DNA from: Bacillota bacterium
Lineage (GTDB): Bacteria; Bacillota; Sulfobacillia; RBS10-35; JAJYVN01
DNA length: 64,000 bases
Assembly: GCA_021806565.1 (NCBI GenBank)
Contig: JAJZXK010000003.1
Coordinates: 18,512 to 82,511 of the forward strand
Direction: 5' to 3'
Under the pieces are notes generated by a model. It was given only the letters and a program-made list of their open reading frames with translations. It was not told where the DNA came from and ran no database searches. The position numbers were made by a program, and so were the translations under genes. Below, piece after piece: positions 17,432-53,569 of this stretch. Numbering within the stretch: position 1 is the stretch's first letter; every line of letters begins with the position of its first letter.

Positions 17432-17770
17432 GTATTAACTGTTGACCAGCAATATCTACACATCTCATCTCCTGTGATATACTGTAGGCATGAAACTGAG
17501 CGCCGGGGCGAAGGAGCAAGGCATCGGCCACCAAGCCGCGTGGCGAATGTACCGCGATGGCATATTGCCCGTGCCGACAGAGCAACTGCCCACAGGCACC
17601 ATCATCTTGAAGCCCCCAAAGGAGGAGCCAACAGGGGTGGCGGTCTATGCGCGTATGCCCTCATCTGACCAGCGTGACCAGCGTGACCAGCGTGCGGACC
17701 TGGATGGGCAGGTGGCGCGTGTGCGTGTGCGTCGAGTTCGTGACGCGCAAAGGCTATTGGCCAAGGCCCT
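17432..17770 (+). pseudogene. IS607-family left end and frameshifted tnpA (serine recombinase with MerR-like HTH)
   Basis: MKLSAGAKEQGIGHQAAWRMYRDGILPVPTEQLPTGTIILKPPKEEPTGVAVYARMPSSDQ...; the expected 'VEFVTRKG' continuation is in another frame. Upstream leader ATTAACTGTTGACNAGNAATATCTA shared with 41590-41662. Confidence 0.8.
17667..17693 (+). repeat. Tandem repeat (GACCAGCGT)x3 within tnpA relic
   Basis: gaccagcgtgaccagcgtgaccagcgt; encodes DQRDQRDQR. Confidence 0.95.
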
Positions 17771-17789
17771 ACGCCGACTGCGGCACCGG

Positions 17790-18025
17790 TAGCGGCTGCA
17801 TGGCCGTAAGCAGCGTGGCTCACGCAACCGCCGCAAGTCGGCGGCCGGCCTTGCGAGACTGCACCGCCGTATCCGCTCTCAACGCACGGACTTCCTGCAC
17901 AGGGCGACCACCTACCTGACGAAAACCAAGTCGGTCATCGTGGTCGAGGACCTTGCGGTGCGTGGCATGATCCGAAACCACTCGCTGGCGCGGTCCATCG
18001 CGGACGCGCCCGTCCGCCAGCTAGT
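17790..18025 (+). pseudogene. TnpB C-terminal region fragment (truncated at both ends)
   Basis: RLHGRKQRGSRNRRKSAAGLARLHRRIRSQRTDFLHRATTYLTKTKSVIVVEDLAVRGMIRNHSLARSIADA, then homology ends and zinc finger/last catalytic Asp region is absent. Confidence 0.85.
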
Positions 18026-23203: not shown

Positions 23204-24373
23204 TCAGCGCCCCCCGGCACCCGAGCCCCCCGACGCCAGGTGCGGCGTCCCCGCCCCCGCCCCCGCCAGCCCGAGCGCCTCGTCATAGTAACCCAACAGT
23301 TGGCGCGTGGGGCCATCCCAACCGTGCCGCGCCCCGCGGGCACGGGCGCCGGCCCGCAGCCGGGCCGCGAGTTCGCTGGAGCCCGCCAGGGCATCGACGG
23401 CCTGCATAAGCGCGGACGTATCGTCTCCGTCGTAGAACATGCCGGCCTCGTCCTCACCCAGCAGCAGGTGGCTCGGGTGGCTGTGGGCCGCGATGATGGG
23501 CAGCCCGCACGCCATGGCCTCCAACAGGACCAGCCCGAGCGTCTCGGTCGTCGACGGGAACACAAAGGCATCGGCGGAGGTGTAGGCTGCGATCAGCGCG
23601 TCGCCGTGCAAATTGCCGGTGAACACCGCCGACGTTCCCGCGAACGTCGCTTCCAGCGCCTGGCGCGCCGGGCCGTCGCCCACCATGGCCAGGCGCAGAT
23701 CGGTGCGGCGGGCCAGCGGCAGGAGCCGTTCCAACTGCTTTTCCGCCGCCAGGCGCCCCACATACAACAGCACCAGCGGCACCTTTGCACCGCCGCCCAA
23801 GCGCAGGCGCATCGCCGGGTCGGCCGGCAGCGGGCGGAATCGCTGCAGATCGACGCCATGGCTCCAAACCCGCACGCTGGCGAACCCGTGGCGCACCAAC
23901 TCGACCCGCGCCGCCTCAGAAGTGCAGAGGTTGACGGCCGCCCGGTTGTGCAGCAGGCGCATGTAGGTCCAGATCGCCCCACTCAGATAACCGAAGCCAT
24001 ACAGCTTGGCATAGTGCGGAAAGTGGGTGTGGTAGCTCGCCACCAGGGGCACACCCATGCTGCGGGAAGCGAGGATCGCCCCGATCCCGAACACGGTCGG
24101 GTTCAGGGTGTGGATCACGTCCGGCGAGAAATCCCGCAACAGATCCAGCGTCCGCACCCGCGGCCAGATGACTCGCTTATCCGGATAGAGGAAGAACGGG
24201 TTGCCGGGGAAACCCACCACCCGCGCGCCCGCATACGTCGGCGGGCCGCCGTCGGGGGCCAGCACGAGCACCTCGTGGCCGAGCCGGTTGAGTTGCTCCA
24301 GTGTGGCCAACAGACGCGTCACCACGCCGTCGGTGGAGGGCAGATAGGTTTCGGTGAACATGGCGACCCGCAC
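23204..24373 (-). CDS. Glycosyltransferase family 4, candidate sulfoquinovosyltransferase (SqdX/SQD2-like)
   Basis: MRVAMFTETYLPSTDGVVTRLLATLEQLNRLGHEVLVLAPDG...VSYHTHFPHYAKLYGFG...WSHGVDLQRF...FVFPSTTETLGLVLLEAMACGLP; position next to sqdB-like gene. Confidence 0.88.
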   Translation of the reverse strand: MRVAMFTETYLPSTDGVVTRLLATLEQLNRLGHEVLVLAPDGGPPTYAGARVVGFPGNPFFLYPDKRVIWPRVRTLDLLRDFSPDVIHTLNPTVFGIGAILASRSMGVPLVASYHTHFPHYAKLYGFGYLSGAIWTYMRLLHNRAAVNLCTSEAARVELVRHGFASVRVWSHGVDLQRFRPLPADPAMRLRLGGGAKVPLVLLYVGRLAAEKQLERLLPLARRTDLRLAMVGDGPARQALEATFAGTSAVFTGNLHGDALIAAYTSADAFVFPSTTETLGLVLLEAMACGLPIIAAHSHPSHLLLGEDEAGMFYDGDDTSALMQAVDALAGSSELAARLRAGARARGARHGWDGPTRQLLGYYDEALGLAGAGAGTPHLASGGSGAGGR

Positions 24374-24416
24374 GAGCCGTGGTCCCCCTCTCCCGGATGC
24401 CTCAGGCGGCCGCGCC

Positions 24417-25568
<1,152 letters not shown>

Positions 25569-33616: not shown

Positions 33617-34705
33617 TCAGACGCCGGGTACGGGCCGCGGGTGGTATCCCGCGGCGGGGGCCGCGTGGCTCAGGGCGTCATAGACCGGACGACGCCTGGT
33701 GGCGACAAAAAGGTATTCGACGTTGCGCGTGTGGGACACGGAGCCGACCTTCACCCCGCCGGGGCTGTAGATGCCGATCCGCGAGCCGATGTAGCGCGGA
33801 TGCTCCCGCTGCAACCGCACCACGAATCGCCCGTCTCCGAGACAGTCCTCGATGTCGGCCGCCGTCAGATACCCCTCGTTGCTGAAAGAGACGACCACGT
33901 GGTCGGCCCGCAAGGCCGCGACCAGGCTGCGTAGGGCCTGCGGCGCCGAGCCCTTATGGTTGAAGGCACTCTTGCGCGTGCGGCAGTCCAGGCGCTTGCG
34001 GGCGACGCCGTAGGTCGGCGGGCAGTCCCAGAGCACCAGCGTCTCCCACAGATGGTAGTTGCCAAGATACGAATGTTGGTTGTACGGGGGGTCCAGATAC
34101 ACCAGATCCACCTCAACGGCCTCGGCCGCCGCCTGCGCCTCTCCCTGCAGCGACCAGCCTGGCCCCGCGAGCAGCGGCGGGACGGACAGGTTCAAGTCCC
34201 CGAGGGCCCGCGGCGCCCACCGCTTCAAGTACGCCATCTGCACGCCCGTCGTCGAATCGACCCGGTCGGCCGCCAGCATGAGGCTGGTCAGCAGGATGGC
34301 ACGCAGTTGGTCGTCCGAGCCGCACACATCCGGAATGGCGTCGCGGACCGCCTGGATGCGGCGGGCGTTTTTCGGGTGGAAGAAGCGGGCCTCCTCCGCA
34401 TACAGCGCGGAAAACCACCCGTCGCGGCCGGTGAGCCGGTTCAGGTCCGCCAGGAGGCCGCGCAGTGCGTCCTCACTGTAGTGGCGCGCATCGGCCGCGA
34501 CCAGCGCCGTGGCGAGGACATGCCCGTAGGTCATCAGATCGTTGGCGACGACCTCGAAACCTGCCGCCTTGAATGCGTGCGCCACGCGCGCCGAACCGGA
34601 AAAGAGGTCGCCGACCCGCCGCACGGGCGCGACGCGGCCGACCTCCGCCACGGTCGACAGGATCCAGGGAACAAGCGCGCGTTTGGATCCGATGTACTTG
34701 ATCAC
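33617..34705 (-). CDS. D12-class N6-adenine-specific DNA methyltransferase
   Basis: VIKYIGSKRALVPWI...VGDLFSGSARVAHAFKAAGFEVVANDLMTYGHVLA...VDLVYLDPPYNQHSYLGNYHLWETLV (DPPY). Confidence 0.9.
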   Translation of the reverse strand: MIKYIGSKRALVPWILSTVAEVGRVAPVRRVGDLFSGSARVAHAFKAAGFEVVANDLMTYGHVLATALVAADARHYSEDALRGLLADLNRLTGRDGWFSALYAEEARFFHPKNARRIQAVRDAIPDVCGSDDQLRAILLTSLMLAADRVDSTTGVQMAYLKRWAPRALGDLNLSVPPLLAGPGWSLQGEAQAAAEAVEVDLVYLDPPYNQHSYLGNYHLWETLVLWDCPPTYGVARKRLDCRTRKSAFNHKGSAPQALRSLVAALRADHVVVSFSNEGYLTAADIEDCLGDGRFVVRLQREHPRYIGSRIGIYSPGGVKVGSVSHTRNVEYLFVATRRRPVYDALSHAAPAAGYHPRPVPGV

Positions 34706-34770
34706 GGCTGCCGCCCCCGTGGTGCCGATCGTCGGGTCGCGCACCCGCCGCAGCCCGCACCGCAGAAGAT

Positions 34771-34836
34771 GCCTCGCCTGTGCGAACGGCCCTGCCTCGG
34801 CCCGACGCCGCGCAGGGCCGTTCACACAGGCGAGGC
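34771..34836. repeat. Long inverted repeat (25-bp arms, 1 mismatch, 16-nt loop)
   Basis: GCCTCGCCTGTGCGAACGGCCCTGC (34771-34795) vs GCAGGGCCGTTCACACAGGCGAGGC (34812-34836). Confidence 0.9.
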
Positions 34837-35853
34837 CGCGGCCCGACGCCGGACCGAGCCGGCGGGGACGCCCGCCAGATGAGCCCAGGCCGCCACCAAC
34901 CGCTCCTGCGCGCCGTCCAGACCGATGCCGCGCAACTGGGCCCCGGCGGAGGTCGGATGGCCGCCGCCGCCCAAAAGGTGCGCCAGCGGCAGCACATCGT
35001 GGCCGCGGGAGCGGAAGCGCAGCCGCACCCCCTGGACACCCTCCTGCAGCACGACCAACACGCCGCCGGCGGGAGGCGAAAGGTGCGTCGGGAGCATGGC
35101 GTGCTCGTACGGGCCGATCCCGTGGCGCCTGGGCTGGTCGACCGTCACCGCCACCGCGGCCAACGGCGGCGCCCCCGGTGCGGTGAGCCAGCCCATCGCC
35201 CCTTCGACCTCCGCCAGCAGGGCCCAGAACCCGGGCGAGCGGCGGTGAAAACGCTCGGCGGCGGCCCCACAATCCGCCCCGGACCGGGCGAACCGTTCGG
35301 CCCAGGCGAAGGCGTCCGGTCCACCGACCTCGCGGAAGCCGGAGGTGTCGCCGAGCAGACCCGCATAGAGCGTAGTGGCCAGAGCGCCGTCCGCCTCCAC
35401 CCCGAGCGCGTCGGCCAGCGCCGCCACCAAACAGGTGCAGGACGGGGCCGGAGTCACCCAGTCGGCCTCCACCCCGAAGCCTGGGTTGTCCTCATGGTGG
35501 TCGAGGCAGAAGGTGACCGGCCCGGGAACCTGCAGCCGCTCGGGACGCGCCGTGTCGACGGCGATGCGGACCGCCGCCGCCGCGTCCGCCCGTTGCAGCG
35601 CCGGGTCCAGCACCCAGGCGTGGAGATCCGGCACCTCCGGCGCCTCGACCCGGGCGCGCTTACCCATGTGGCGCAGCACGGTGCAGAGTGCCGCGGCCGA
35701 AGCCAGAGCATCCACATCCGGCAGCACGTGCGGCACGATCACGAACCCGTCCGCCCCGTTCAGCCCCGCAACCAACGCGCGCGGTACCGTCAGGCCGCCC
35801 GCCAACCCGTCCCGCTCCCCTTCCAGCCACCGGGGCCGCACCCAGGCGGCCAT
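34822..35853 (-). CDS. DHH/DHHA1 family phosphoesterase (NrnA-like)
   Basis: HVLPDVDALASAAALCTVL, CLDHHEDNPGF, GLLGDTSGF, LLGGGGHPTSAGAQL. Confidence 0.85.
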   Translation of the reverse strand: MAAWVRPRWLEGERDGLAGGLTVPRALVAGLNGADGFVIVPHVLPDVDALASAAALCTVLRHMGKRARVEAPEVPDLHAWVLDPALQRADAAAAVRIAVDTARPERLQVPGPVTFCLDHHEDNPGFGVEADWVTPAPSCTCLVAALADALGVEADGALATTLYAGLLGDTSGFREVGGPDAFAWAERFARSGADCGAAAERFHRRSPGFWALLAEVEGAMGWLTAPGAPPLAAVAVTVDQPRRHGIGPYEHAMLPTHLSPPAGGVLVVLQEGVQGVRLRFRSRGHDVLPLAHLLGGGGHPTSAGAQLRGIGLDGAQERLVAAWAHLAGVPAGSVRRRAAASPV

Positions 35854-40614: not shown

Positions 40615-41445
40615 ATGGCGGAGACCGCCGAGCAGCGGGTACTGCTCGATGATTATGAAGTGGGCGAGCTCGCCGTCGAGTTCGACGACCGGCCGGCCGA
40701 GGAGATCGTGGCATGGGCCATCGAGCGTTTCGGCCACCGGCTCGCGATCTGCAGCTCGCTGCAGGCCGAGAGCGTCGTGCTCTTGGATATGGCGTGGCGG
40801 ATTGACCCGCAGGTACGCGTCTTCACCGTCGACACCGGGCGCATGCCCCAGGAGACCCACGTGCTGATCGACCGCATCCGCGACCGCTACGGGGTGCAGA
40901 TCGAGGTGGTCCACCCGGACGCCGAGGAACTGTCCCGCATGACGACGCGGTATGGCAGCAACCTCTTCTACGAGAGCGTGGCCAAGCGGCTCCTGTGCTG
41001 CGAGGTGCGCAAGGTCGAGCCGCTCAAGCGCAAGCTGGCCGAGTTGGACGCCTGGGTGACCGGCCTGCGGCGTGAGCACTGGCCGACGCGCAGCAACATC
41101 CGCAAGATCGACATCGACCACGACCACGACGGCATCGTGAAGCTCAACCCGTTGGCCGACTGGATCCACGACGATGTCTGGACCTACATCCGCGACCACG
41201 ACGTCCCGTCGCACGACCTCTACGCCCAGGGCTACACCAGCATCTCCTGCACCTGCTGCACGCGCCCCACGAAACCTGGCGAAGACCCGCGCGCCGGACG
41301 CTGGTGGTGGGAAAAGGGCGCACCCAAGGAGTGCGGTATGCACTGCTCCCTGGAAACCGGCGGTTTCGAACACGAGTTGGACGCCCTGCTCGATGACGTC
41401 CTGCGCGGCAAGGCCCCGGAGACGGCGAAGGCGGGTTCGGACTGA
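40615..41445 (+). CDS. cysH: Phosphoadenylyl/adenylyl-sulfate reductase (FeS-type APS reductase motif)
   Basis: AICSSLQAESVVLLDMA...RLLCCEVRKVEPLKRKLAELDAWVTGLRREHWPTR...CTCCTRPTKPGEDPRAGRWWWEKGAPKECGMHC: four-Cys FeS signature. Confidence 0.93.
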   Translation: MAETAEQRVLLDDYEVGELAVEFDDRPAEEIVAWAIERFGHRLAICSSLQAESVVLLDMAWRIDPQVRVFTVDTGRMPQETHVLIDRIRDRYGVQIEVVHPDAEELSRMTTRYGSNLFYESVAKRLLCCEVRKVEPLKRKLAELDAWVTGLRREHWPTRSNIRKIDIDHDHDGIVKLNPLADWIHDDVWTYIRDHDVPSHDLYAQGYTSISCTCCTRPTKPGEDPRAGRWWWEKGAPKECGMHCSLETGGFEHELDALLDDVLRGKAPETAKAGSD

Positions 41446-41498
41446 GGCGCGTCCCGGGCCCCGTCCCGTCCTGCGGTCGGCGGTGCTCCCCCAGCGGA

Positions 41499-41516
41499 GC
41501 CCCGCCGCGGCGGGGC
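41499..41516. terminator. GC-rich perfect palindrome downstream of cysH (candidate terminator stem)
   Basis: GCCCCGCCGCGGCGGGGC; no following T-tract. Confidence 0.35.
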
Positions 41517-41544
41517 GGCGGATCCGCTCCACCCGGAGGGCGAG

Positions 41545-41663
41545 CGCGCTGCCACGCGGCTTGGTAGCTGATGCCTTGCTCCTTCGCCCATCTGCTCAGT
41601 TTCATGCCTACAGTTTCTCACAGGCGCTGATACGTCTAGATATTACTTGTCAACAGTTAATGC
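41545..41663 (-). mobile_element. IS607-family left end with first ~18 codons of tnpA (solo 5' relic)
   Basis: ATTAACTGTTGACAAGTAATATCTAGACGTATCAGCGCCTGTGAGAAACTGTAGGCATGAAACTGAGC...; MKLSRWAKEQGISYQAAW; homologous to 17432-17545. Confidence 0.8.
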
Positions 41664-41889: not shown

Positions 41890-43341
41890 ATGCGGACCCG
41901 GCGGGACGTGCTGAAATGGGCCGCGTGTGCGTTCGCGCCGGCCGTCTTGGCGGGTTGCGGGCCCTTTGCGACAACCGCCATGAGAGGGCGGCTGCGGATC
42001 GGGATCGTCGGCCTACCGGGCCACATCGCCGACGGCCTCGCCAAGGCGCTCACAGCCTGTTTTCAAGCGTTCGCCCGCCAAGACCGCGTCGCGACTCGGC
42101 TTGAAGTCTCCGCTTACGCCATGCCCCCGCTGCAGTGGTATCGGTGCCGTCCTGGGGGCCCGTGCGGACCGGCCACGACCCGACATGGATCCGGCCTCTT
42201 CCACGTGGGCCCATCCGCCAAGGACCCTCAACTATCGGGGAGCCGCGGCGGCCTGTTCGTGCGCGGCCGCACCGCACTGGGGCTGGTGTACGGGGAATCG
42301 CCTCCACCGGCCGTGGCCGCGAGTGTGGACGCCCTACGGGTGGCGGGCCCCGACATCATCATCGCCTACTCCACCTGGTCCTATTGGATCACGCCCATCG
42401 CGACCCCCTTGATCGATATGCAAAAGACGTATGCCGAGCATCTTTCCGGGGTGGCGCCGTCCGTGATCGAACACGGGATGTTGCTCTCTCCACAGGAGGG
42501 GTTGCAGCCGTACGGCGCCCCGCTGCTCCGCGATCCCCTGGCACTGTTCGTCCCGCCCGCGCTGGACGGGCTGAACCCGCACCAGGCGCCCTGGACCTGG
42601 GATGGTCTCGCGCGCTTGCTCAAACGCGCGAACCCGCCCGTCGGCGGAGGCGGCTTTCTGGCCACGGCCTCCTATCCAGAAGGCGCGGAAAGTGCCCTAT
42701 CCATCCTGCTCGCGCAGGGCGGATCACTCGGCAGGGTCGCGCGCGGCCGCGTCATCCCCACCGGCGATACGGCCGCCGCGCGGGATGCCCTTCGCCTCTG
42801 GGGGCGGCTGGTCCACTCCGGAAAACCCACCTGGGTACCGGAGGGCGCCCCGGCCAACGGGACCACGCTTGCCGCGATGGTGTCGGTCACTGCGCAGCAT
42901 CTGTGGTCTCCGCTCTGGCTGGATCGGTTTCAGTGGAACCCGACCTGGCCGTGTTGGCCGCTTCCCGCCGGACCCAGGGGACCATTGGTGCCGTGCACCT
43001 ACCTGACCGCGTTCATCAACGCCGGCAACGCAAGCGGCTCGCTGGCGCAGGATTTCGTGGCGTTTCTGTGGGGGAGCAGGGCCCAGGTCCTGCTCCTTGC
43101 CGCGGGCGTCGGCCTGCCGCTGCGCCCGCAGCCGGGCGGCAGGATGTCTCTGCTCACCCGGCTCTATCCGTGGATCGGGGATCCATCCGCCTTCGGCAAC
43201 GCGGACGCCGACATCCGGATCAGCCAATTGTTCCACGGCGTGGGCGGGATACGGGACGCCGCTCCCCTCTACGGCGTGGTGGATGCGTTCCAACGCAAAC
43301 TGCTGCGGATCCAGCAACCGACCGCACCCGCCACGGCCTGA
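41890..43341 (+). CDS. Putative lipoprotein, extracellular solute-binding protein-like
   Basis: MRTRRDVLKWAACAFAPAVLAGCG lipobox; ...LFVPPALDGLNPHQAPWTWDGLARLLKRAN..., ...FINAGNASGSLAQDFVAFLWGSRAQVLL. Confidence 0.65.
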   Translation: MRTRRDVLKWAACAFAPAVLAGCGPFATTAMRGRLRIGIVGLPGHIADGLAKALTACFQAFARQDRVATRLEVSAYAMPPLQWYRCRPGGPCGPATTRHGSGLFHVGPSAKDPQLSGSRGGLFVRGRTALGLVYGESPPPAVAASVDALRVAGPDIIIAYSTWSYWITPIATPLIDMQKTYAEHLSGVAPSVIEHGMLLSPQEGLQPYGAPLLRDPLALFVPPALDGLNPHQAPWTWDGLARLLKRANPPVGGGGFLATASYPEGAESALSILLAQGGSLGRVARGRVIPTGDTAAARDALRLWGRLVHSGKPTWVPEGAPANGTTLAAMVSVTAQHLWSPLWLDRFQWNPTWPCWPLPAGPRGPLVPCTYLTAFINAGNASGSLAQDFVAFLWGSRAQVLLLAAGVGLPLRPQPGGRMSLLTRLYPWIGDPSAFGNADADIRISQLFHGVGGIRDAAPLYGVVDAFQRKLLRIQQPTAPATA

Positions 43342-44126: not shown

Positions 44127-44915
44127 TCAGACCCAATCCTCACAACCGCGAAACGGCATGTGCCGGCCGGGCAGGTAGCGCGGACGAGGACGGTAGGGGT
44201 TCCCGCCCGCGAGCGGCCGGCCCCGCAGCAGGAGGGCGCAGGGCCACGCGGGCGAGGTGATGCGCGCGCTGGTGGGAGTGTAGCGGAGGTTGAGGTCGCA
44301 GCGGCGCCGGGGGGTCGGATTCGCCCCCGCGGCATGCAGGAGCAGTGGATGGTATGCCGCCACATCACCGGGCGCCAGCTCGAGCTTGAGCACCGCCGCG
44401 GCGGGGTCGGGACCGCTTTCCACCACGGCCGGCTCGGGCGGTGCGGCCCCACCCTCCGCCAGCCGGTGGGAGCCGGGCAGTACCCGCCAAGACCCGTCGG
44501 GCCGCGGGCGGGCATCGATCGCCACGCGGAACGTCACAAAGCGCGGCGGATCCAGCGGCCATGCAAGCCCATCCCGCCGCCAGCCCCCGTTGCGAGCGTC
44601 GAACGGTGGCGTGCAGCGGTAGTGTGAGGCAAACAGGGCGATATCCGGACCGATCAGCGTCTCGACGACGTCCAGCAGCCGCTCGTCCGACGCCAGGCGC
44701 ACCCAAAAGGGATCCGCGGCGACAAGGCCGTGGCCGGAATCCTCCCACGCCTGGGCCGCGCGGCGCGCCGTCAGCCAGCCGACGTGCGCCGCCGCCTCCG
44801 CAACCAACGCCGCATCCAAGACCCCGCGGAAGATGACGTATCCGTCGCGCTCGAACGCCTCGGACGACCCGTTCAACCGCCCGGCCCCCCGGCCGCTCCG
44901 CCGCCGCTCACGCAA
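44127..44915 (-). CDS. Phytanoyl-CoA dioxygenase (PhyH)-like protein with altered first metal ligand
   Basis: FERDGYVIFRGVLDAALVAEAAAHV...LDVVETLIGPDIALFASHYRC...GWRRDG...VLPGSHRLAEGG...GDVAAYHPLLLHAAGANPTPRRRCDLNLRYTP. Confidence 0.8.
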   Translation of the reverse strand: MRERRRSGRGAGRLNGSSEAFERDGYVIFRGVLDAALVAEAAAHVGWLTARRAAQAWEDSGHGLVAADPFWVRLASDERLLDVVETLIGPDIALFASHYRCTPPFDARNGGWRRDGLAWPLDPPRFVTFRVAIDARPRPDGSWRVLPGSHRLAEGGAAPPEPAVVESGPDPAAAVLKLELAPGDVAAYHPLLLHAAGANPTPRRRCDLNLRYTPTSARITSPAWPCALLLRGRPLAGGNPYRPRPRYLPGRHMPFRGCEDWV

Positions 44916-45897
44916 GCGGCTCGTCGGTGCGATCGTATACGCCGAGCGTCGGCTCTAACCCACCGAGCCACACGCGCACCTCCGACCGCGGGCGCAGGGC
45001 AGCGCCGCAGGCACGCAGCCCACCCCGCAGGTGGCGCCGGTCGGAGGTCAGCACCACCAGACGGGAGCGGGGCCGCAGTATGCGCGCCGCCTCACGCAGC
45101 AGGGCCGGATACAACGCGGCGTTGTCGGCCGCGGTACCCATGCGGTGGCCGAACGGCAGGTTGGTCGCGACCGCCGTGGCCTCACCGGGTTCGAGCGGCA
45201 GGTTGCGGGCGTCGCCGTGGCACAGTCGCGCCACGACCCGGCCCTGCGCCACCCATCCGGAAAGGGTTCGCGAGGCCGCGTCCAACGCCCCGGCATCCAC
45301 GTCCACCCCGACCAGTCTGCAGGGCCCGAGCATCGCCCGCTCAGCCAGCACGGTGCCGGATCCACAACACGGATCGCACAGGAGGTCTCCCTCCCGGGCA
45401 CGACTCGCCATCACCATCGCCCGCGCGAGCGCCGGGTTCAGGGCCCGCGCCATCAGAGCCACCCGGTATGGACGGCGCCGCTCACAGCCCCAGACGCGTG
45501 CGCGGCCGATGTGCAACACGCCGCCGCGGTCCAGGATGGCCACCAGATCCGGTGGCCCGTCCAGATCGGCCTCCACCGGCCCGCCGGCGGCGCGCACGAC
45601 CGCGGCGCGCACCTCGGCCGTCTCCCGGCCGCGGTTGATCCACTGCGCTTCGAACCAGAGCCGTTGCGCCGGCGGCAGTCGGTCCGGCGGCGACTCGGCC
45701 GGCCCCCTCCAGATCAGATCGATCAGGGCCCGCAGCGTCCCCGCCCCGCGCACCTGTTGCGCGGCATCCCCGGACGCCACCTCCACCCAGCCGTCCCCGA
45801 CCCGGCCCAGCGGCACCCCGAGCGCCTTGCACTCACCGACCAGGAAGCTCTCGATACCGGGCAGGGTCAGGGCCACCAACGCGCCGATCTCCACCAC
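44908..45897 (-). CDS. RNA methyltransferase-like (UPF0020/THUMP-associated type)
   Basis: GDLLCDPCCGSGTVLAERAMLGP..LVGVDVDAGALDAA...ATNLPFGHRMG (NLPFG catalytic motif). Confidence 0.82.
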   Translation of the reverse strand: MVEIGALVALTLPGIESFLVGECKALGVPLGRVGDGWVEVASGDAAQQVRGAGTLRALIDLIWRGPAESPPDRLPPAQRLWFEAQWINRGRETAEVRAAVVRAAGGPVEADLDGPPDLVAILDRGGVLHIGRARVWGCERRRPYRVALMARALNPALARAMVMASRAREGDLLCDPCCGSGTVLAERAMLGPCRLVGVDVDAGALDAASRTLSGWVAQGRVVARLCHGDARNLPLEPGEATAVATNLPFGHRMGTAADNAALYPALLREAARILRPRSRLVVLTSDRRHLRGGLRACGAALRPRSEVRVWLGGLEPTLGVYDRTDEPLA

Positions 45898-46125: not shown

Positions 46126-46854
46126 ATGGGGCGCGCGTCGCGGGGCCGTTCCGTGGTCCTCGGAGTTGCTGCAGCGGTGGTGAGCTTGAGTCTCGGCGGG
46201 TTTGCGTCCGCCGCATCTCTACCCATGGTACAGATCGACCAGAGTTCCCTGTCCGTGGCGGCCATAGGCGCGAGCCATAACCCCTTCGGCCCCCTGGCGG
46301 CGGGCCAGACACTCGCGGAGGTCTTCACCACCACCCAGCCCTTCAGTCTGGTGGGCGCGGACACCCCCACCTGGACCACCAAGACCTCCGGAGGCACGCT
46401 GCTGCTGCGCGCGGGCGCGGGTCTGACGGGCAAGGTCCTCGTCCAAAAGGCCTTCACGAACGTGGCGGACGGCGGCACCCTCACCCTCACGCTGGCCTCT
46501 CCAGCGCCCGCCGGCACCTACACGCTGGAACTGGCCAATCCGACCGGCCCGAGCCCGCTCGGCTCGCCGCCAAAGGGAGGCGCCATCGGTTGGTGGGGAT
46601 CCAACAGCATGGTTCCGGGGGACTACGCGCTCGTCAACGGCAAGAAGCAGCAGGCGGAACTGGTCATGGAGTACCAGCCGGTCGCCGCCGCGGCGAAGCC
46701 GGCGGCCTCCACTCCAGCGGCCGCCAGCAAGGGCACAGCGGGTAAGGCGCTGCCCAAGACCGGACAGGGTCCCGCGCTGCCGCTGGCCGGAGCGCTTGCG
46801 CTGGGGACGGGGCTGTGGCTGGCCGTGGCACGCCGCCGCCGCGGGACCGCCTGA
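46126..46854 (+). CDS. Secreted cell-wall-anchored protein with LPXTG sorting signal
   Basis: N-terminal signal peptide; C-terminus LPKTGQGPALPLAGALALGTGLWLAVARRRRGTA; central module paralogous to C-terminus of 47157..49871. Confidence 0.85.
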   Translation: MGRASRGRSVVLGVAAAVVSLSLGGFASAASLPMVQIDQSSLSVAAIGASHNPFGPLAAGQTLAEVFTTTQPFSLVGADTPTWTTKTSGGTLLLRAGAGLTGKVLVQKAFTNVADGGTLTLTLASPAPAGTYTLELANPTGPSPLGSPPKGGAIGWWGSNSMVPGDYALVNGKKQQAELVMEYQPVAAAAKPAASTPAAASKGTAGKALPKTGQGPALPLAGALALGTGLWLAVARRRRGTA

Positions 46855-47156
46855 CCAGCGGCCGCTGGAGACACCCCGCGCCGGCATGGGCGGGGTGTCT
46901 CATTTTTCCGTCGCACGGGGGTACACCCGGCATGAAGGACGGCCGGGGCCCGTGGCGACCGAGCGCTTCCGCCGGCGTTCCTTCCCACCTGGCGGTCAGA
47001 GCGTGGCCGCTTGTCCGGCGCGAATGGGTGTCGGCGCCCCTCCCCCGCCCCTTGCCCAGTCCGTGTTGCGGCTTCCGGCCGACCCGGGCGCCAGTGACCC
47101 GGGTCGGCCGGAGGGCCGACGGGCTCAGAGCCGGAACGTGAAAGGATGGACGCGAC

Positions 47157-49871
47157 GTGTTGCGGTGTTCCTGGCTGCGCCACGTCGGGGGCCGGCGCGG
47201 CATTTGCCTCCTCTGCCTGACGGCCGCGTGCGCATGGACCACGGCTTGCGGACGGCCCAAACCCGCCGCGGTGCACGTCCGCACCATCCGGCTGGCGCCC
47301 GCACCCGCATCCGTCACCGAAGGGGCGACACTCCGCCTCACCGCCACTGCGCGCTCCGCCAACGGAGCGCCGGTGGCTGGCGCCGTCCTGCAGGCCTTTG
47401 CCAACGGCCAGTCCTGGGGGGCGCCCGAAACGACCGACCACCAGGGCCGGGCCGTGCTGCCGCTACCCATGCCGAGCACGGGAACCACGCGGCTGCAGGT
47501 GGCGACTCCCCCCCGGCGTACGGCGTGGATCTGGCCGGTCAAGACGCCTGCCGGGCGGCCCGTGTATCTCGTGCGAAAGTTCACCCTCGATCCCAAACTC
47601 CTCGGTTCGACGGTCTCCCGGTTGTCGATGCAGGCGACCCTGAGCATCGTGTCGGACCGGCGGTTCGTCGCCTATCTCAACGGTCATAAGGTGGCCTCGG
47701 GCTCGGGTCTGGACGTTCAGACAGTCCAAAGCCTCGGATCGCACCTGCGTGCGGGCGGCAACGTGCTGGCGGTCGAGTCATCGGGCGGACAACAGCCCGG
47801 ACTGCTGGCCCGCCTTTCGCTACGAACCTTCAGCGGTACGCTGACCGTACGGAGCGGCGGCGGGTGGCAGGCCTTTGGCCGGGCTCCGTCCCACTGGAAC
47901 GGCAATGCCGCCGCGTTGAGCCAGGCACGGGCGGTCCGTGTGCTCGGACCGGCGGGCGGCGGCGGCTGGCAAGGGCGTCCGATCCAAAACGGTGCGGCGC
48001 TGGGCCTGACCCCCCTGAGCCTCGGCGCCAGTCTGCCCGCGGGCTGGGTGGCATCTCCGATGGTGCGGGTGGCGGTCCGGCCGGTCCACCTGCCAGTGCG
48101 TCCGAACCCACGCCACATGGTTGGCATGGAATATGAGCCATGGTTCACCTCCATGAACATGACCTGGAAGAGCGCCGAGGCCGTCCCTCTGCTCGGGCCG
48201 TACCGCTCCACCGACACCTCGGCGCTCCGCCAGCATGCCCTGTGGCTGGACCGGGCCGGAATCAACTTCCTCCTCATCGACTGGTCGAATAACCTTTGGG
48301 GTAAGACCAGCTGGTCCCAGCGCTCACCGAACATCCAACAGTTGGTGAACAGCACCACGGTGCTGCTGAACACCTACGCCGCGATGCGAACCCAGGGCTT
48401 ACCAACCCCCCAGGTCACGCTGCTGCTCGGCCTGGACAACGGCCCCACCACGACCACCACCGCCCTGAACGAAGAGATGGCCTGGATCGACCGGAACTAC
48501 GTGCGCAATCCCCAGTACCGAGGGCTGTGGGTGCACTATCTGGGTAAGCCGCTGGTGGTGATCTTCAACGGCGCCGGTCCCAGCGCGCTCTCCGGGCAGC
48601 CGCCGATCTCCACATCGACGTTCACGGTGCGATGGATGGGCAGCCAGTTGCAGCAAAACCACCTGCAGAACGCCGGCTACTGGTCCTGGATGGACGGCTC
48701 GGTGCACCCGGTCGTGACCGCGTACCATGGACATCCCGAGGCGATGACGGTGACCCCGGCGTTCTTCGGCGCCGGTGGCTGGACCGGGCCCCAGGCCCTG
48801 GCGCGGCTCGGCGGGACGACATATCTGCGGGAGTTCGCGCGGGCGATGCAGATCAGGCCCCGGTTCCTGATCATCAACCAGTTCAACGAGTTCGCCGGCC
48901 AGCCGCCCTCGGCGGCCGTCCACGTGGACACATACACCGAGGCCCTGAGCGACGACATCGAACCGACCTCGGTGGGTGACTGCGGCTACGCCAGCTGCGG
49001 CGGCTGGGGCTTTTACTACCTGGATCTGACCCGGGCCCTGGTCTCCATGTACCACGAGGCCAAGCCCAAGAGTACGCTGCTGGCCGTCGGCAGCCCTCTG
49101 CGCGGCGCCACCGTCTGCGGAACGGCGCTGCCCGTCTTTTGGACCACCGTGGGGGCGCGGCCCAGCGGCGTGGAACTGAAGCTGGACGGACGCACCCTGG
49201 CCAGCGGGGCGTCCGGCACCTCGTACCGCCTCTCGCTGGCCGGGTTGCGCCGGGGGCCGCACACGCTCAGCGTGGTCGCCGAGGGCGCCAGCACGCGCTA
49301 TGTGCTCTCCCGCTCCGTGTTCGGGCCGGTACTCTCCCATCCCGTCCCCTCCCAGGTGCGACGCAGCTTCACCTACACCGGACCCTGCTCCGCGGGCACC
49401 CCCGCCGCGGCGAACCCCGCCGCCCCCGCCGCCCGCGACGGGATCGACCTCGGCAGCGTGGCCGCCGGTGCGATCGGGCCGACGCACAACCCGGTGGGGC
49501 CGCTGCTGCCCGGGCACACCCTGGCCGAGGTCTTCACCGTTCCTGGAGCCATGACGTCGGTCGAGGCCACCACCCCGACGTGGAACCACACCGGATCCGG
49601 CGCCACCCTCGTGTTGCGGGCGGGCGCCGGCCTGGGCGGACGAGTGCTGGCACGGCACACCTTCCAGAACGCGCTGGACAACGGCTGGCTGAGGTTGACC
49701 CTGCCGAGCCCCGCACGGGCCGGCGTGTATACGTTGGAGATGATGCACCCGACCGGCCCGGCCATCGGCTGGTGGGGCGCGGCGAAGATGGTCCAGGGGG
49801 CGTACGCGCTGAAGGACGGCCGCCGGCAGGCTCAGGAGTTGGTCGTCCACTGGACGATCGAGGGCGGCTGA
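47157..49871 (+). CDS. Lipoprotein: Ig-like N-term, GH99/GH71-like TIM-barrel core, C-terminal module shared with the LPKTG protein
   Basis: LTAACAWTTACG lipobox-like; VGMEYEPWFTSMNMTW...LWLDRAGINFLLIDWSNNLWG..., LIINQFNEFAGQPPSA..HVDTYTEALSDDIEPTS; C-term SVAAGAIGPTHNPVGPLLPGHTLAEVFTVPG...AIGWWGAAKMVQGAYALKDGRRQAQELVV. Confidence 0.7.
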   Translation: MLRCSWLRHVGGRRGICLLCLTAACAWTTACGRPKPAAVHVRTIRLAPAPASVTEGATLRLTATARSANGAPVAGAVLQAFANGQSWGAPETTDHQGRAVLPLPMPSTGTTRLQVATPPRRTAWIWPVKTPAGRPVYLVRKFTLDPKLLGSTVSRLSMQATLSIVSDRRFVAYLNGHKVASGSGLDVQTVQSLGSHLRAGGNVLAVESSGGQQPGLLARLSLRTFSGTLTVRSGGGWQAFGRAPSHWNGNAAALSQARAVRVLGPAGGGGWQGRPIQNGAALGLTPLSLGASLPAGWVASPMVRVAVRPVHLPVRPNPRHMVGMEYEPWFTSMNMTWKSAEAVPLLGPYRSTDTSALRQHALWLDRAGINFLLIDWSNNLWGKTSWSQRSPNIQQLVNSTTVLLNTYAAMRTQGLPTPQVTLLLGLDNGPTTTTTALNEEMAWIDRNYVRNPQYRGLWVHYLGKPLVVIFNGAGPSALSGQPPISTSTFTVRWMGSQLQQNHLQNAGYWSWMDGSVHPVVTAYHGHPEAMTVTPAFFGAGGWTGPQALARLGGTTYLREFARAMQIRPRFLIINQFNEFAGQPPSAAVHVDTYTEALSDDIEPTSVGDCGYASCGGWGFYYLDLTRALVSMYHEAKPKSTLLAVGSPLRGATVCGTALPVFWTTVGARPSGVELKLDGRTLASGASGTSYRLSLAGLRRGPHTLSVVAEGASTRYVLSRSVFGPVLSHPVPSQVRRSFTYTGPCSAGTPAAANPAAPAARDGIDLGSVAAGAIGPTHNPVGPLLPGHTLAEVFTVPGAMTSVEATTPTWNHTGSGATLVLRAGAGLGGRVLARHTFQNALDNGWLRLTLPSPARAGVYTLEMMHPTGPAIGWWGAAKMVQGAYALKDGRRQAQELVVHWTIEGG

Positions 49872-52682: not shown

Positions 52683-52712
52683 TTGACGCGCGATGCAATA
52701 CCGCGATATCAT
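52683..52712 (+). promoter_or_regulatory. Candidate promoter of vapBC
   Basis: TTGACG (52683-52688), 18-bp spacer, TATCAT (52707-52712), overlapping short palindrome ATCATGAT. Confidence 0.5.
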
Positions 52713-52736
52713 GATACCGGGAGGGAAGCGCCAGTC

Positions 52737-53165
52737 ATGTCGGTCCGGTTCGTGACGACCAACGTCCGATTCGCGCCGGAGGATTACGCCGACCTGCAGC
52801 GTCTGGCCGCGGCGAGTGGCCGCAGCCTGGCGCAGTGCATCCGACTGGCCGTCAGCGCCTATCTGGCCCGTCCCGACGGTGAAACCGATGCGGGTGCGGC
52901 CGAGGACCTTCTCGCATACGGCCCGCCTGGATCCGGCGTCGAAGTGGCCGCGGAGGTGCACGGCGAGACGCTCGTCTTACAGCAACCGTTACCCGGCGTC
53001 CGCGATGGCGATAAGGTGTGGGTCCACTGCATCGGTGCGGCCGACCGGGCCGTGCAGCAACAGCGCCGCCAAGTGGTGGCGGACCTGCTGGCCGAGTTCG
53101 AGGCGATGGAGGCAGGCCCTCCGGCCCCGACCCGCGCCGAGGACAAGGAGATCTACGACCCGTGA
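52737..53165 (+). CDS. vapB: VapB-type/RHH-like antitoxin
   Basis: MSVRFVTTNVRFAPEDYADLQRLAAASGRSLAQCIRLAVSAYL...; overlaps PIN gene start (GTGA). Confidence 0.75.
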   Translation: MSVRFVTTNVRFAPEDYADLQRLAAASGRSLAQCIRLAVSAYLARPDGETDAGAAEDLLAYGPPGSGVEVAAEVHGETLVLQQPLPGVRDGDKVWVHCIGAADRAVQQQRRQVVADLLAEFEAMEAGPPAPTRAEDKEIYDP

Positions 53166-53569
53166 AAGAGGCTTTCGTCGACACCGGTCCGCTCTACGCC
53201 TTCTTCGACACCCGCGACCCCCGCCACGATGACGCCGTCCAGTTGTTTACGGCGGCATGGCCGTTGGTTACGACGAACCTGGTGGTGGCGGAGGTCGTCA
53301 CCCTGGCCATGCAGCGGCGGGAACCGGCTTTCGGCATCCGGCTCGCCGAGCACCTCGTGGAGGGCCGTCCGGCCAGGGTAGAACGGACGACCGCCGCCGA
53401 CGAGGCGCTCGCTGTCCGCTTTTTGAGGCGCTTCGCGCCGACCGGGGTCAACTTCGCCGACTGCGTGTCGTTTTCGGTCATCGCCCGTCTGCAACTGGGG
53501 TTGGTGTATTCCTTCGACCAGAACTTCGCGCCACCGGGCTTCTTCCGGCTCGAGCCCGCCGAATGCTGA
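53162..53569 (+). CDS. vapC: PIN domain ribonuclease toxin (VapC-type)
   Basis: KEAFVDTGPLYAFFDTRDPRHDDAVQLF...LVVAEVVTL...VNFADCVSFSVIARL..GLVYSFDQNF: D..E..D..D PIN acidic residues. Confidence 0.88.
   Translation: MKEAFVDTGPLYAFFDTRDPRHDDAVQLFTAAWPLVTTNLVVAEVVTLAMQRREPAFGIRLAEHLVEGRPARVERTTAADEALAVRFLRRFAPTGVNFADCVSFSVIARLQLGLVYSFDQNFAPPGFFRLEPAEC

Follow-up and report, generated by a model that had tools for sequence, protein, structure and literature searches.

A putative carbohydrate-binding module on an LPKTG wall-anchor protein and the neighbouring GH99-like surface protein of a Bacillota bacterium

In a 64,000-nucleotide stretch of the Bacillota contig JAJZXK010000003.1 (positions 18,512 to 82,511, here called the window), two neighbouring genes encode an LPKTG wall-anchor protein and a multidomain surface protein related to glycoside hydrolase (GH) family 99, and each product carries one copy of a module of about 140 amino acids (table 1). 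The two copies aligned over 147 residues with 53% identity (BLASTP, E = 3e-43), and chance likeness between the two sequences is excluded. This module probably represents a new type of carbohydrate-binding module (CBM). In the favoured explanation, to which a probability of about 0.55 was assigned, it is a CBM-like jelly roll absent from Pfam and NCBIfam that would bind sugar. In this explanation it stands alone in a lipoprotein, makes up the ectodomain of a sortase-anchored protein, belongs to glycosidases as an accessory domain or an insertion, and was locally duplicated to the wall and to the GH99-like enzyme. Both open reading frames (ORFs), and the paralogous module that the original prediction had placed in the LPKTG protein and at the C-terminus of its neighbour, were recovered.

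The module was matched by no model when the Pfam and NCBIfam libraries were scanned. Pfam recognised only the anchor of the LPKTG protein and only weak immunoglobulin (Ig)-like and GH99 signals in the GH99-like protein, and NCBIfam added only the LPXTG anchor. A profile search for relatives in the PDB returned chance-level matches (neuraminidase and titin, E > 0.3). The novelty claimed for the module was therefore borne out, both for catalogued families in these two libraries and for solved structures by sequence.

A third copy in the home genome (contig C117, 48% identical) is the sole domain that can be recognised in a lipoprotein whose lipobox reads LLAAC. Orthologues of this lipoprotein occur in two other genera of the family (genomes G002 and G003; MAG contigs JAJZZC010000318.1, JAJYVN010000351.1), and the same aminoacyl-tRNA-synthetase-like gene adjoins the module lipoprotein gene both on C117 and in G002. 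Genome G004 contains recognisable module pieces in different frames, which look like a decayed copy. In another family of the class (genome G133), a match with E = 3.9e-20 lies inside a six-hairpin glycosidase, in which MGH1-like and GH116-like matches (101-285) are followed by the module (about 305-425) and then by catalytic-domain-like sequence again. A plasmid search with the G133 copy as query retrieved a single protein, from the haloarchaeon Natrinema gelatinilyticum (42%, E = 3e-15). The Natrinema protein is a GH78 alpha-L-rhamnosidase composed of Ig_Rha78A_N (58-169), a Pfam-free stretch, Bac_rhamnosid_N (338-512) and the catalytic domain, and the module fills the Pfam-free stretch. The homology of this copy to the other modules is firm at the sequence level (E = 4.9e-17 against a profile of the other five, itself excluded). 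Weak matches (E about 0.001) were obtained in three more of the 154 genomes of the class (G148, G029 and G069). No copy was found in phages or in viral contigs. Among 399 genomes drawn evenly from Bacillota, a draw that left out G002, G003 and G133, the module was found in the home genome only.

In its GH99-like, six-hairpin GH and GH78 contexts, the module is a separate domain without catalytic function that is joined to a carbohydrate-active enzyme or inserted within one, as CBMs are. Its occurrence in glycosidases elsewhere is expected of a carbohydrate-binding module and supports the CBM-like reading. Seven sequences from two domains of life have kept the residues L, F, V, PTW, S, T, L, G, D, L, G, Y, G, GWW and G, of which the aromatic and acidic ones (PTW, D, Y and GWW) would form a putative ligand site. 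One copy, P0002, is compact and lacks the loop insertion. The same pattern could be explained if the module served only to stabilise secreted proteins, as an insertion or an appendage without specific binding, with PTW and GWW kept for core packing; the invariant residues are nearly all aromatic, Gly or Pro, as in the core of a fold, and the module is found in proteins of differing function. The module is, however, the sole folded domain both of the lipoprotein kept in three genera and of the LPKTG protein, where a spacer would stabilise nothing, and this explanation is considered unlikely.

The beta-rich nature claimed for the module agrees with structure prediction. Two AlphaFold models built from four sequences showed six to eight strands at modest confidence (predicted local distance difference test scores, pLDDT, of 57.5 and 64.3). 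The small single-domain proteins among their Foldseek neighbours were largely CBMs (BT0996-C, CBM6, CBM35 and CBM32). From these models it is concluded that the module is a predicted CBM-like beta-sandwich, not assignable to any CBM family.

The partner protein was originally described as GH99-like and as a lipoprotein. Its single-sequence match to the Pfam GH99 model (E = 0.079) was below the cut-off, but a seven-member profile reached human endo-alpha-1,2-mannosidase in the PDB (E = 2.3e-5), with a co-linear alignment at the motifs 'PLLGTYxSxD' and 'NEF' ('NE[WF]'), so that the first description holds as profile homology. Bac_rhamnosid_N was recognised in the G133 orthologue (27.2 bits, cut-off 25), while the window copy alone gave no match. 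The lipoprotein assignment is plausible, though not firm. Either of two cysteines (C25 and C31) could be the lipobox residue, Thr stands at -3 of both, and the signal peptide of the G002 orthologue looks ordinary. A second group of GH99-like proteins (L028, L042, L043 and L046, in genomes G000, G002 and G003) was also observed; these are 37-41% identical to the window protein, are short, have a twin-arginine (TAT)-like or lipoprotein signal, and have kept the NEF-type motif.

Several observations weigh against the CBM-like reading or against its enzymatic part. Foldseek retrieved jelly-roll proteins of many kinds with weak scores (E 0.003-0.09, template-modelling (TM) scores of about 0.35-0.5, none with E < 0.001), and viral capsid and spike jelly rolls scored equally well against the models. 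A beta-sandwich within a glycosidase can be a mere structural spacer. The module is absent from GH99-like orthologues that are 69-70% identical to the window protein over the barrel; the G133 protein ends plainly and the G002 protein ends in a TIG domain. In the GH99-like group, the first Glu of the NEF motif is invariant and the second catalytic Glu is absent in all seven aligned members, the stretch equivalent to EWHE reading EFAG, EFNQ, EFAQ or EFRT (third position A, N or R, then G, Q or T). The catalytic glutamates of GH99 are E404 and E407 of the EWHE motif in human MANEA, and the corresponding motif in GH71 is DYGE (PMC11025385). Because the second position is never Glu in the aligned members, their sequences do not support catalysis by the GH99 mechanism in the partner as it stands; the group may use a different second catalytic residue or may have lost activity. 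The partner domain belongs to a GH99-like group in which the catalytic motif has changed.

Since the 69-70% identical orthologues end without it, the module is, on sequence comparison, a swappable appendage of the GH99-like enzyme. The two window modules are sisters, being each other's closest relatives (tree support 0.96), and the module was gained or replaced at the C-terminus of the enzyme; the simplest route would be duplication between this gene and the adjacent LPKTG gene, in either direction. Sister copies on neighbouring proteins, one fixed to the wall and one on an enzyme, would also be expected if the module were a structural or protein-protein domain, with like-with-like contacts docking the GH99-like enzyme on its wall-fixed LPKTG neighbour, and its replacement in G002 by TIG, a domain that often serves as a spacer, fits that idea. 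It is nevertheless doubtful, as only one intact module per genome was found in G002, G003 and G133, leaving no partner copy, and the G133 and Natrinema modules are inserted in enzymes, a position expected of a substrate-side accessory domain.

A functional link between the module and the GH99-like enzyme is supported by their occurrence in the same four of the 154 genomes of the class (G000, G002, G003 and G133), a fifth genome having only a decayed module. The naive hypergeometric probability of this pattern is 2e-7, a value that is overstated since three of the four genomes belong to one family. In G133 the gene for the glycosidase that carries the module lies head-to-head with that of the GH99-like orthologue, which is 69% identical to the window protein, and 47 bases separate the two genes. 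At this locus (contig 24, L040, 4726-8537) neither protein has a visible signal peptide, and the GH99-like orthologue seems to begin inside the galactose-binding domain; with transposase-like genes at a distance of 1-3 kb, this locus may have been rearranged or truncated.

The LPKTG sorting signal reported for the smaller protein is real, scoring above the curated cut-offs of both anchor models (table 1). Three sortase genes were found in the home genome above the Pfam cut-off (best E = 6.5e-26), two of them with an intact GH...TCSG...R pattern, and the genome encodes at least five proteins with an LPKTG sorting signal (three above the anchor-model cut-off and two below it, recognised by motif). 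The other LPKTG proteins are encoded on contigs C11, C163, C42 and C207; four of them (L047, L049, L051 and L053) had no Pfam match above cut-off besides the anchor. The absence of sortase, which the original prediction had named as grounds for rejection, was thus not encountered, and the sortases and the further LPKTG proteins make covalent anchoring of the protein to the wall well supported on sequence evidence.

Table 1. Features of the LPKTG and GH99-like genes and their products (window coordinates).
Feature	Position	Strand	Evidence
LPKTG wall-anchor protein, 242 aa: signal peptide, module, Ala/Pro/Lys linker, sorting signal	46126..46854	+	ORF, translation; Gram_pos_anchor (Pfam) 23 bits, cut-off 20; LPXTG_anchor (NCBIfam) 19.6 bits, cut-off 15.9
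Sec-type signal peptide, residues 1-30 (MGRASRGRSVVLGVAAAVVSLSLGGFASAA)	46126..46215	+	By eye from sequence, no predictor
Module copy 1, residues 37-183 of LPKTG protein	46234..46674	+	BLASTP against copy 2
LPKTG motif, then hydrophobic stretch and RRRR	46750..46764	+	Anchor models and motif
Predicted intrinsic terminator directly 3' of LPKTG gene	46868..46907	+	14-pair hairpin, -29.1 kcal/mol, z -4.27, then UCAUUUUU
GH99-like multidomain surface protein, 904 aa, GTG start, probable lipoprotein	47157..49871	+	ORF, translation; lipobox by eye, C25 or C31
N-terminal bacterial Ig-like domain, residues ~48-136	47298..47564	+	Sub-threshold Pfam: CarboxypepD_reg 3.7e-5, Big_1, Big_3_5
Galactose-binding-like domain, alpha-L-rhamnosidase N domain-like, residues ~140-245	47574..47891	+	Region of G133 orthologue matches Bac_rhamnosid_N
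GH99-like (beta/alpha)8 catalytic-type domain	48084..49106	+	Seven-member profile against GH99 in PDB
Big_7-like Ig domain, residues 646-706	49092..49274	+	Sub-threshold in window protein; 21.9-18.9 bits in orthologues
Module copy 2, residues 763-899 of GH99-like protein	49443..49853	+	BLASTP against copy 1

The two genes lie on the same strand with 302 bases between them. They probably do not form one simple operon, because a strong terminator, which a simple terminator scan with a loop limit of 8 had overlooked, is predicted between them. Upstream, a gene similar to solute-binding proteins (SBP; position 41890; SBP_bac_1 below cut-off) is separated from the pair by unrelated PhyH-like (44127-44915) and methyltransferase-like (44908-45897) genes, and a GH42-domain gene (50069) lies on the strand opposite to the pair. 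In neither G002 nor G133 was the GH99-like gene flanked by the SBP or the GH42-like gene, so that the neighbourhood, proposed originally as a check, does not travel with the pair.

These data bear on the original proposal of a dedicated two-component system, in which the LPKTG protein would capture and the GH99-like protein degrade one external glycan, with the SBP and GH42-like proteins as further parts. Adjacent genes on one strand, sister modules, and nearby SBP-like and GH42-domain genes are what such a system would predict, but the terminator, the intervening genes, the opposite orientation of the GH42-like gene and the unconserved neighbours are against it, as is the finding of the LPKTG protein with the module in the home genome only. 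This version, too, is unlikely. The proposal is supported in part, by the co-occurrence of the module with the GH99-like gene; given also the module-free orthologues and the absent second Glu, we read the relation as a functional association and not as a proven two-component system.

Under the CBM-like reading, a local duplication would have given one module copy to the wall protein and fused the other to the C-terminus of the GH99-like enzyme. The wall copy would then retain a glycan at the cell surface, and the enzyme copy would direct the GH99-like catalytic domain to that glycan or to one like it. A rhamnose-containing polymer is suggested as the target by four hints: the Natrinema copy lies in a GH78 enzyme, the partner has a rhamnosidase-N-like domain, rmlA/rmlB/rmlD-like genes lie downstream of and convergent with the G002 GH99-like gene, and in Frondihabitans about 2.7 kb separates a GH78 gene from the GH99-like gene. 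Each of these hints is weak when taken alone, and rml genes are common. A broader proposal can be sketched, namely that Bacillota and haloarchaea share a new CBM family for a rhamnose-containing surface polymer, and that in this lineage one module both retains the polymer, when displayed by sortase, and guides its cleavage, as the targeting part of a GH99-like enzyme whose active site has been remodelled; in this full form it is a long shot.

If sugar binding is true, the module would found a new CBM sequence family spanning bacteria and archaea and at least three kinds of glycosidase, which current libraries have missed, and it would aid the annotation of secreted enzymes in poorly studied Bacillota. 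The series of stand-alone, wall-anchored, fused and inserted copies is a handy set for testing the reuse of a module in retention and in enzyme targeting.

Other features were noted in the window. A ribbon-helix-helix protein overlaps a PIN-domain protein (52683-53569; PIN 41.6 bits), forming a VapBC-like toxin-antitoxin pair, and a D12-class N6-adenine DNA methyltransferase is encoded at 33617-35272. A GT4 glycosyltransferase adjoins an epimerase-family protein (23204-25565), whose N-terminus resembles SqdB; the two may form a sulfoquinovose lipid pair. Short recurring pieces at 17490-17792 and 41144-41605 of the window and at 1207-2553 of L028 appear similar to the N-terminal part of IS607-type resolvases, and one piece lies beside another GH99-like gene.

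When compared with known systems, the LPKTG protein has the signal peptide, linker, LPKTG motif, hydrophobic stretch and RRRR tail of LPXTG sortase substrates, in a genome with sortases, and differs from them in that its ectodomain is one uncatalogued module. The barrel of the partner is co-linear with the GH99 endo-alpha-mannosidases and mannanases (and GH71) at both motifs, but has neither EWHE nor DYGE and falls well below the Pfam cut-off. The CBM6/CBM35 group and BT0996-C (PDB 7ZVO), which binds polygalacturonic acid (PMC9843283), were the best small single-domain fold neighbours of both module models, although with weak scores (E 0.007-0.04, TM about 0.4) and without sequence similarity or a Pfam CBM match. 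When the Natrinema protein was aligned to the GH78 enzyme SaRha78A (PDB 3W5M), the aligned parts ended at 126 and restarted at 314, leaving the module stretch unaligned. This gap is presumably where the CBM67 of 3W5M is placed. Membership of the module in CBM67 was rejected, as no match to 3W5M was obtained at E up to 10 with a single sequence or a profile. The CBM67 of SaRha78A binds rhamnose (PMC4690510). Both this CBM67 and the module are known or predicted beta-sandwiches, and the Natrinema copy, alone among the modules, occupies the same slot between an N-terminal Ig domain and Bac_rhamnosid_N.

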